A program made the translations under genes and the position numbers. Below are positions 35,176-53,473 of a stretch of DNA of 64,000 nt, in pieces. The notes beneath the pieces are model-generated. The model made no database searches. It had not been told where the DNA came from and worked only from the letters and a program-made list of their open reading frames with translations. Source of the DNA: Elusimicrobia bacterium HGW-Elusimicrobia-1. GTDB lineage: Bacteria; Elusimicrobiota; Endomicrobiia; PHAN01. The number at the start of each line of letters is the position of its first letter. Within the stretch, counting starts at the first letter, position 1. The stretch is taken from NCBI GenBank assembly GCA_002841695.1, contig PHAN01000007.1, positions 1 through 64,000 on the forward strand, read 5' to 3'.

Positions 35176-36092
35176 CAAACGCCAAAATATTTATAGCCGA
35201 CGACGACGCCGAAATACTTGATTTACTGATTTATACGCTTGAGTCCGAACATTACACGGTGGTAACCGCCTCCGACGGAGACACCGCCCTGCGAAAGATT
35301 GTTGAAGAAAAGCCGGACCTTATAATCCTGGATGTCAACATGCCCGGAATGTCGGGCTTTGAGGTTTGCCAGAAGGTCCGCGAAAACTCCGACATCTGTC
35401 TTACTCCGGTAATAATATTGAGTTCTCTGGCCAAAACCAAGGATAGAATCACCGGAATTAAACTCGGCGCCGACGAGTATCTCACCAAGCCGTTCGAGCC
35501 GTTTGAGCTTGCCGCCCGCGTCGAAGGTCTGCTCAAAAGAGCCCGGGAATCCCTGGCGGCAAGTCCTCTGACCGGCCTGCCCGGCAATGTGTCCATTGAG
35601 ACGGAAATAAAAAACCGTCTCGCCGGCGCGGAGGAGTTTTGCGTGATATATTCCGACCTCGACCACTTCAAATCGTACAACGACCGCTACGGATTCGACA
35701 GGGGCGACGCCGTAATCAAACTTGTTTCCACGATATTTCGCACCGCCGTGGCGGAAGAGGGAAACTCCAAGGATTTCATAGGACACATAGGCGGAGATGA
35801 TTTTGTCGTCGTAACCACTCCCGACAAGTGCCGGGGTATCGCCCAGAAAATCGCGGCCGTTTTCGGCGCTTTAATCATCAACCAATACGATACGGATGCC
35901 AGAAAAAACGGTTTTGTGTCGGGCAAAGACCGAGCCGGCGCGCCGGCTCAATTTCCTATTATGACTATTTCCACCGGATGCGCCAAAGTTGTTCCCGGAA
36001 AATTTCCGCATTATTCGCTGGTCGTGGAAAAAGCGCGCGAACTTCTTAAAACGGCCAAGACGCAAACGGGGAATTCGTTGGTCTGCGAGTAA
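35172..36092 (+). CDS. Response regulator with GGDEF-like output domain
   Basis: Phosphorylation would control c-di-GMP synthesis, if active. The 306-residue product has a receiver (FIADDDAEILD, LIILDVNMPGMSG, KPFEP) at residues 1-125 and a GGDEF-like domain from about 135, with SDLDHFKSYNDRYGFDRGD and the active-site loop GHIGGDDFVVV. Asp replaces the usual Glu of GGDEF; this can still bind metal, so activity is uncertain but possible. No RxxD inhibitory site is obvious near it. It pairs with the single receiver gene upstream. Confidence 0.86.
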   Translation: MTNAKIFIADDDAEILDLLIYTLESEHYTVVTASDGDTALRKIVEEKPDLIILDVNMPGMSGFEVCQKVRENSDICLTPVIILSSLAKTKDRITGIKLGADEYLTKPFEPFELAARVEGLLKRARESLAASPLTGLPGNVSIETEIKNRLAGAEEFCVIYSDLDHFKSYNDRYGFDRGDAVIKLVSTIFRTAVAEEGNSKDFIGHIGGDDFVVVTTPDKCRGIAQKIAAVFGALIINQYDTDARKNGFVSGKDRAGAPAQFPIMTISTGCAKVVPGKFPHYSLVVEKARELLKTAKTQTGNSLVCE

Positions 36093-52068: not shown

Positions 52069-52785
52069 ATGAAATACACTGAAAAACTTCACCGTCGCCG
52101 TCGCATATACACAGGCAAAAGCGTAAACTTTTCCGCCGATGTCGCCCGCCTTCCCGACGGCAAAACTTCCGTCCGCGAATATCTGGAACATCCCGGAGCC
52201 GTGGCCGTCCTGCCTCTTATGCCCGGCGGGCGACAGGCAGTTTTCGTAAGGCAGTACCGCTATCCTGTCGGCAAAGAAACCCTCGAGATTCCCGCCGGTA
52301 AACTGTCCGCCAAAGAAAATCCGCTCGCTTGCGCGAAAAGGGAACTTGAGGAAGAGACCGGCATGCGGGCCGGATCGATAAAAAAACTTTTTTCGTACTG
52401 GCCTTCGGCGGCTTTCAGCACGGAGGTCATACACGTTTACGTCGCCACGCGCCTTGCGCGGGGCAGTTTTAATCCGGATTCGGACGAATTTATCGAGCCG
52501 GTTATCGTCGATATAGACGAAGCGATCTGTATGGTGCGCAGGGGGCTCATCAGAGATTCCAAAACGGCCCTCGCGCTGTTGTATTACGAAACTTTTATCC
52601 GAACGCGCGCGAATCGCGGGCAAATCGTTAAGCCGGGCAAGCTCGGCAATTATATGGAGCACCGGAAGATTCTTGTAGTCGCCGACCTTGGTCGGCTCAC
52701 AGCAAAAAAAGCCGAGCAAGCTCGGCAACTACAGTGCTTATGCGCGCGAGTGAGACAAAAGTCACAAAAAAAACTCTTGACTTAA
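52069..52785 (+). CDS. Nudix hydrolase, ADP-ribose pyrophosphatase-like
   Basis: The enzyme probably cleaves ADP-ribose or related nucleotide sugars. In the 238-residue product the Nudix box is GKLSAKENPLACAKRELEEE followed by TGM, with EIPAGKL before it, as in the ADP-ribose pyrophosphatases. Family members usually end after about 180 residues. Here the last 50 or so (from PGKLGNY on) are basic, lack domain similarity and are encoded by GCCGAGC repeats, so the natural end was probably lost. Transcription is probably leaderless. Confidence 0.85.
   Translation: MKYTEKLHRRRRIYTGKSVNFSADVARLPDGKTSVREYLEHPGAVAVLPLMPGGRQAVFVRQYRYPVGKETLEIPAGKLSAKENPLACAKRELEEETGMRAGSIKKLFSYWPSAAFSTEVIHVYVATRLARGSFNPDSDEFIEPVIVDIDEAICMVRRGLIRDSKTALALLYYETFIRTRANRGQIVKPGKLGNYMEHRKILVVADLGRLTAKKAEQARQLQCLCARVRQKSQKKLLT
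52676..52733. repeat. Inverted GTAGTnGCCGA element in the Nudix 3' end
   Basis: Arms of 23 bp with three mismatches (GTAGTCGCCGACC... and its inverted partner ending in CTCGGCAACTAC) flank a 12-nt A-rich loop. A partial copy of one arm lies just upstream at 52628-52652. It overlaps the coding 3' part of the Nudix gene and encodes its unusual tail. Confidence 0.7.
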
Positions 52786-52805
52786 AAACAATAATTTGCT
52801 ATATA
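52777..52805 (+). promoter_or_regulatory. Promoter of the riboswitch-controlled gene
   Basis: A -35 TTGACT (52777-52782, 5 of 6), a 17-nt spacer, and an extended -10 TGCTATATA (hexamer 52800-52805) predict a start near 52812. It overlaps the end of the Nudix gene. The transcript would start just before the c-di-GMP-I aptamer. Confidence 0.72.
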
Positions 52806-52821
52806 GTGACTGCGATATAAG

Positions 52822-52981
52822 TACCCGAAACGGCAAACCCCGGGAAACCGGGGGACGCAAAGCCGTCAGGCGGCATAAGCAATTTATAAATTGTCGCCGC
52901 TTGGCGTCCCGATTTTACGTCGGGACACGGGCCTAAATTCCGCCGTTGTTTGGCGGGACACGGCGGCCGGGTTGCCGAAGG
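52822..52981 (+). ncRNA. c-di-GMP-I (GEMM-I) riboswitch with 65-nt inserted module
   Basis: The aptamer core is recognisable on both sides. 5' part: CGGCAAACC, a GAAA-capped GC stem, then GGGACGCAAAGCC (52831-52864). 3' part: GGGCCTAAA, a hairpin TCCGCC/GGCGGG, then the GGCGGCCGGGTTGCCGAAGG end (52929-52980), which corresponds to the tetraloop-receptor and GNRA-docking regions known from Vc2. The base at the position known as G20 is G, which favours c-di-GMP over cGAMP. In Vc2 only 3 nt separate the two parts. Here 65 nt hold two more hairpins (52870-52897 and 52905-52927). The ribosome binding site GAAGG lies in the last aptamer bases, before the ATG at 52991, consistent with translational control. 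Confidence 0.82.
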
Positions 52982-52990
52982 TATAAAACG

Positions 52991-53473
52991 ATGACATTGC
53001 GTTTAGCGCTGGCACTTTTATTGTTTACCGGATCGTATATGGCCGCAACACCGGCCGATGCGCGTCCGGTTTATTTATTTTCGGGGGTTACGGATTCCTC
53101 GTTTTACGAGGATTTGGACGTACGCGACTCCCGCAACAGAGTTTTGAGCGACGCGAAGTCGGTGTTGATGCTGCGCGAGACCTTCGCGGTTTCGCTTTAC
53201 CAGATTCTTATGGTCAGGGGCGCTCCGCTTGCCGCTATGGTTAAGGGCGTTGTGGGACGCAATTTCCCGGACTGTTCGTCGATCGGCGTTCCTGCGCGGA
53301 AGTTTATAACCGGCGCCAAGTCGCCGGCAGCCATCATCGCCGAGCGGCTTGAAAAAATCGCGATACAATCCTCCGCCGCATTTCTTTCGGTCGTAATGGC
53401 CGGCGGCGTTTTCATTTTTGCGGCTAAACGGCCCCCCGTTTCGGTCCGCTCCTTTGAAGTCCTGCGTTGTTGA
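52991..53473 (+). CDS. Small exported protein of unknown family, riboswitch target
   Basis: The 160-residue product has a signal peptide (LRLALALLLFTGSYMAATPADA) and a hydrophobic segment close to the C-terminus (FLSVVMAGGVFIFAA), followed by a basic tail. The middle is not recognised: VYLFSGVTDSSFYEDLDVRD, FAVSLYQILMVRGAPLAAMV, and two Cys. The ATG at 52991 is chosen because it follows the aptamer's GAAGG by about 10 nt; a longer start at 52946 would lie within the aptamer. Direct control by c-di-GMP points to a role in surface attachment, motility or pilus control. Confidence 0.75.
   Translation: MTLRLALALLLFTGSYMAATPADARPVYLFSGVTDSSFYEDLDVRDSRNRVLSDAKSVLMLRETFAVSLYQILMVRGAPLAAMVKGVVGRNFPDCSSIGVPARKFITGAKSPAAIIAERLEKIAIQSSAAFLSVVMAGGVFIFAAKRPPVSVRSFEVLRC

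Follow-up and report, generated by a model that had tools for sequence, protein, structure and literature searches.

A probable c-di-GMP-I riboswitch with a two-hairpin extension at its P3 bulge in Elusimicrobiota

Results

A c-di-GMP-I aptamer lies upstream of a gene for a small secreted protein

The window, by which we mean the whole 64-kb stretch of DNA under analysis, contains a single RNA family above threshold in an Rfam cmscan of its full length. This is a c-di-GMP-I aptamer (RF01051) at 52822-52979 on the + strand, the strand of every feature of the riboswitch and its gene given below, and it scores 45.1 bits (E 1.3e-5) against a gathering score of 35. The first-pass annotation had recognized the aptamer from its conserved 5′ and 3′ GEMM-I parts; all of the motifs that it named are found where it had placed them, and the score exceeds the threshold with the insertion described below left in place. 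Downstream lies a gene (52991-53473) for a 160-aa protein that matches nothing in Pfam or NCBIfam and whose N terminus is signal-like. In G024, G042, G049 and G058 (genomes and loci carry our own handles), too, orthologs of this protein are encoded behind c-di-GMP-I aptamers. The protein and its orthologs (L071, L069, L074, L075) share a conserved DLD.RD motif, and a C-terminal LRC occurs in at least three members.

A promoter-like element, TTGACT - 17 nt - TATATA, was read from the sequence at 52777-52805 and was not called by a strict sigma-70 scan; it would place the transcript start near 52813, immediately upstream of the aptamer. TTGACT-N17-TATATG precedes the tandem aptamers of G001 and of G000, the window's own genome. 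G000 has five RF01051 places, and the six GGDEF matches among its encoded proteins make it probable that this organism produces c-di-GMP. A partial GGDEF match is also found in the window at 35565-35825 (57.5 bits, profile positions 5-91), inside a 313-aa open frame.

In the minimum-free-energy fold, the closing helix P1 is formed by GUACC (52821-52825) and GGUAU (52980-52984). The ribosome binding site had been assigned to the end of the aptamer, and this holds: the Shine-Dalgarno sequence GAAGG (52977-52981) lies 9 nt upstream of the ATG at 52991 and partly inside P1, with a pairing probability of at least 0.95 at 52980-52982. Because the Shine-Dalgarno sequence sits in the closing helix, the riboswitch probably controls translation of the small secreted protein, which belongs to no known family. 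The ligand-free minimum-energy fold has P1 formed and GGCAAAC paired with GUUGCC, and is 4.9 kcal/mol better than the native aptamer fold in a comparison that omits ligand and tertiary contacts. Both modelled states pair the P1 part of the Shine-Dalgarno sequence, so that the direction of control is a guess; it is plausible that c-di-GMP turns the gene OFF.

The binding core is intact

The ligand-binding core and GNRA hairpin occupy 52832-52859 in the RF01051 alignment. The core includes GGC at 52832-52834, in which G52832 is equivalent to G20 of the Vc2 aptamer; GACGCAAAG, containing A52859, the equivalent of A47; and a C within 52975-52976, the equivalent of C92, with all equivalences counted by hand on the alignment. 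Thus, the equivalents of all three Vc2 ligand contacts (roles in PMC11218506) are present. The C92 equivalent belongs to the GCC of the aptamer's 3′ end, read from the sequence at 52974-52984. The tetraloop hairpin, CCCCGG-GAAA-CCGGGG, lies at 52838-52853, and a candidate for its receptor in the 3′ helix (P3) has CCUAAA on the 5′ side (52932-52937) and, on the 3′ side, a GACAC that deviates from the consensus.

The register of P3 was set by hand-reading its pairs against the RF01051 consensus. In the lower helix, AGCC (52861-52864) pairs with GGTT (52970-52973) in the RF01051 alignment, as it does in all seven sequences of R1, the covariance model introduced below. The upper helix and tip (52928-52973, R1 alignment) consist of CGG 52928-52930 paired with CCG 52967-52969 and GCC 52931-52933 paired with GGC 52962-52964, followed by UAAA, a variable tip hairpin, a two-nucleotide bulge GG (52965-66) and the returning GGTT (52970-73). 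The whole aptamer region folds with z = -3.4.

Two abutting hairpins replace the P3 bulge

The c-di-GMP-I fold is among the best studied of riboswitches. A single nucleotide, a U in Vc2, normally forms its P3 bulge. In the RF01051 consensus, the bulged nucleotide of ordinary aptamers, between AGCC and CGG, is an A. The window aptamer has no such one-nucleotide bulge: between AGCC/GGTT and CGG/CCG it carries a 62-nt insert (52865-52926) followed by a retained A (A52927). The insertion noticed at first pass is therefore real, though it had been taken for a 65-nt linker joining the two conserved helices and instead lies within P3, as 62 nt plus the A. The missing single-nucleotide bulge is a departure from the peripheral consensus and not from the binding core, and hence we class the aptamer as a variant.

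The first inserted hairpin (52865-52905) has a 10-bp stem and an inner hairpin formed on the 14-nt palindrome CAATTTATAAATTG (52880-52893). The second (52906-52926), whose GTCCCGA/TCGGGAC pairing had been noted beforehand, has an 8-bp stem, GUCCCGAU/GUCGGGAC, and a UUUAC loop. Folded alone, the insert forms two helices that span it end to end with no linker (-32.7 kcal/mol, z = -6.7), and none of 500 shuffles folds as well; in a separate fold, a slightly trimmed insert gives z = -5.2. The two abutting hairpins thus replace the bulge, the bulge A is kept, and the opposite strand of P3 runs unbroken, leaving A52927 as the sole unpaired nucleotide of the predicted four-way junction. Terminator hairpins were considered and rejected, and with them the suggestion of an extra termination module: neither hairpin has a U tract after it, and no + strand terminator is called at 52600-53100.

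A rival reading is a degenerate riboswitch that no longer binds c-di-GMP, and the window aptamer does score below the ordinary aptamers of its own genome with RF01051 (45 vs 68 bits). However, its core residues are intact, and the drop in score is explained by the insert, since scores of 76.6 and 64.4 bits are reached by orthologs that lack it. With R1, which includes the arms and was trained on the window sequence too, the aptamer reaches 91.6 bits. Degeneration appears very improbable.

It had also been suggested that a repeat has inserted into the riboswitch. In a wider form of this reading, the newcomer would be a palindromic repeat of the dispersed kind, or a small mobile element, and would be tolerated or disruptive. 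The stem of the second hairpin, TCCCGA...TCGGGA, does occur 39 times in the genome against once for a reversed-pattern control. Most of these places are one 21-nt repeat with flanks GTCAT...AATC, but the riboswitch hairpin lacks these flanks and differs in its loop. There is no second copy of the insert in its own genome, where only the locus itself matches in full, and the other aptamers described below have unrelated stems at the same nucleotide. A repeat insertion is, on this evidence, scarcely credible. The dispersed palindrome is an observation in its own right: it reads about TCCCGAATGTTTTTATCGGGA with its GTCAT...AATC flanks, and its stem pattern is found at 39 places in G000 (e.g. L195-L209).

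The same extension recurs across the phylum

The two-hairpin insert is not unique to the window aptamer. On contig 11 of its own genome, the second aptamer of a tandem pair carries a two-hairpin insert at the same nucleotide, and a search of 60 relatives, with the matches read, gave seven insert-bearing aptamers in three families. At minimum free energy, each of these seven first-found inserts folds into a pair of abutting hairpins that fill its whole length, apart from a lone extra nucleotide in one insert, and z ranges from -3.4 to -6.7. An A and then CGG come next in all seven. The two-hairpin architecture arises in only 3-12% of shuffles of each insert. From these seven aptamers we built the covariance model R1 on a loop-trimmed, ungapped alignment, MAFFT on full sequences having misaligned the hairpins. 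Covariation counts on this alignment are biased towards structure and are not independent proof, as its stems were registered by each sequence's own fold.

R1 searches of the phylum (199, then 341 genomes) returned the seven source aptamers at 74-100 bits and added members in G062, G116, G201, G202, G203, G204 (two loci) and G206. With each insert read, the total across the 341 genomes comes to 15 loci, spread over 12 genomes and five families of Elusimicrobiota; the model that brought in the later members is one biased towards the structure. A further locus, G201:C104, was left out because of an assembly gap. The records for four members describe MAGs of Elusimicrobia, Endomicrobiia and Endomicrobiales. 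The R1 scores of G116 (55 bits) and of the longer G204 insert (63.5) fall within the range of ordinary aptamers, whose scores reach 61 in the phylum and 68.5 beyond it, and because of this overlap at the lower end membership was decided by reading each insert.

The search for homologous aptamers with insertions, proposed with the original observation, has thus shown that 15 aptamers carry the extension, always at the same nucleotide. Their inserts range from 29 (G201) to 80 nt and are mostly unrelated in sequence, yet all 15 fold as two top-level hairpins followed by the A; in G204, the first arm of one of the two inserts is branched, and in G202 one spare nucleotide separates the arms. The members have no conserved sequence in common, either in the loops or in the stems. 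That mostly unrelated sequences occupy the same site in 15 aptamers indicates that the shape is what is conserved, and recurrence at 15 switches looks like a real structural variant and not an accident. On the opposite strand, the bulge is GG, not AG, in 15/15 insert-bearing aptamers versus 22/41 ordinary ones of the phylum (Fisher p about 0.001), an association that we do not claim, as the sequences are related and R1 itself favours GG.

Beyond the phylum, R1 was run on 690 genomes of two other phyla, comprising 399 of the Desulfosporosinus phylum (131 places) and 291 of the phylum to which a Bdellovibrionales genome belongs (6 places). None of the 137 matches listed, all with E below 1e-9, a limit at which weak relatives may be missed, has an insert at the P3 bulge. 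Nearly all are 79-99 nt, too short to hold the insert, and the seven longer ones, when their sequences were read, had an ordinary bulge and long P3 tips. A strict DNA pattern run over 84,980 genomes and viral contigs gave four true matches, all in Elusimicrobia, but fits only about one third of known members, so its silence outside the phylum weighs little; two further matches, L062 and L063, were false.

The extension comes and goes between orthologous operons

Three orthologous operon groups include members with and without the insert. Group A is defined by the small secreted protein (160-180 aa); the insert is present in the window, in G024 and in G042, where a NUDIX gene precedes the protein's gene, and absent in G049 and G058. 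Group B encodes a YPNPF-motif protein, a PorV-like protein and a FliF/FliG-like fusion, and has the insert in G000, G001, G058 and the G201-G206 group but not in G024, G038 or G049. Group C encodes a long FN3-like protein and a PorV-like protein, with the insert in G042 and none in G038; the PorV-like and FN3-like labels are a motif reading made with no profile search. When the insert label is mapped on trees for two group B proteins, trees that have several open forks, 2-3 gains or losses are needed. Together with the distribution among operons, this means that the insert has been gained or lost independently of the operon, and that it is dispensable in some lineages.

The third gene of the tandem-aptamer operon of G000 (L068, G000:C11) encodes a 618-aa protein with a FliF C-terminal-like domain (E 5.7e-5), FliG domains (1.8e-25) and TPRs, and adjoins genes for PorV-like and YPNPF proteins. 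This operon, which sits behind two c-di-GMP-I aptamers, possibly encodes a non-flagellar rotor or surface machine.

The two hairpins might alternatively be a second sensing or regulatory module, responding to another ligand, a protein or a loop-loop contact and making the RNA a two-input switch. An element that keeps one position across families and is lost or gained among orthologs could fit an added input. Against such a module, the loops and internal positions are not conserved, lengths vary from 29 to 80 nt, and several of the hairpins are plain stems with four-base loops. We consider a second module unlikely, and we are equally doubtful of a two-input c-di-GMP switch particular to Elusimicrobiota in which the arms are the second input.

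Other arrangements of c-di-GMP-I aptamers in the phylum

G201-G203 and relatives differ from the window in having a terminator downstream of the aptamer. Downstream of the aptamer at L150-L153, a GGCAACYTAACCGAC-like sequence complementary to GTCGGCCGGGTTGCC, the 3′ strand of the aptamer, runs into a terminator; we take this to mean that the four-way-junction aptamers of that family have an expression platform of the transcription type. At L003:1501-1900, L014, L016, L020, L027, L029, L030 and L039, the P3 strand of the first or single aptamer resembles GGAGCTAAAGATAGGGGGC, and downstream its complement of roughly 20 nt (CCCCCTATCTTTAGCTACCG) runs into a terminator hairpin; this complement is probably a long-range anti-terminator common to distant families. 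Several c-di-GMP-I aptamers of the phylum, read by eye only, have one 5′ half followed by two 3′ halves (GGGTTGCCGAA), as if these competed for the one 5′ half (L112, L113, L116, L123, L126, L129, L044/L096, L125, L035, L097).

Discussion

We propose that the window element is most probably a working c-di-GMP-I riboswitch with an ordinary core and a P3 that bears a peripheral four-way-junction extension, a proposal that supports the earlier reading of a modified aptamer: the two-hairpin extension stands at the same nucleotide in 15 aptamers with the core kept.

Judging from the topology of the junction, the lower and upper parts of P3 would still stack on one another, since the 3′ strand is continuous, and the two arms would stack on each other and point away. 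Stacking of P3 in this manner would preserve the ligand site and the docking geometry of the tetraloop. The arms may then serve as a scaffold that stabilizes or pre-organizes P3, or that prevents strand mispairing during transcription, and would not be a sensor of their own; the lack of any conserved loop or stem sequence speaks for a structural role. Binding of c-di-GMP would be expected to stabilize P1, hiding part of the Shine-Dalgarno sequence, and the stabilized P1 would lower translation of the small secreted protein.

Importantly, a P3-bulge four-way junction that is gained or lost between orthologous operons provides natural pairs with and without it in the same regulatory setting. Such pairs allow one to ask how peripheral RNA tunes the ligand affinity and folding speed of a riboswitch. 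The data also indicate that Rfam under-scores arm-bearing aptamers, the window aptamer receiving 45 bits versus 92 with the arm-including model.

The literature on c-di-GMP-I describes tandem and triple-tandem arrays and long expression platforms (PMC4759541, PMC11218506, PMC9262584, PMC12452182), and variants distinguished by ligand are at least named there. We found no four-way-junction form of c-di-GMP-I in the literature searched, which covered few subscription papers, and an earlier description is possible.

Compared with RF01051 and Vc2, the window aptamer shares the core residues, the GNRA hairpin, GACGCAAAGCC, the lower and upper P3, and a P1 with an expression signal at its 3′ end; it differs in having two hairpins and an A, forming a predicted four-way junction, where Vc2 has one bulged P3 nucleotide. 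Aptamers with a long P3 tip (e.g. L184, L186, L189) likewise have extra RNA in the 3′ helix, but there the added length is in the variable P3 terminal loop, whereas the window aptamer has it at the bulge, which lies four pairs above the ligand site. The family also overlaps with tandem c-di-GMP-I riboswitches, as the G000, G001 and G058 members are each the second aptamer of a tandem pair. Whereas the triple tandem Bc3-5 (PMC4759541) consists of full aptamers in a row, the window aptamer is single and its arms lie inside one aptamer.
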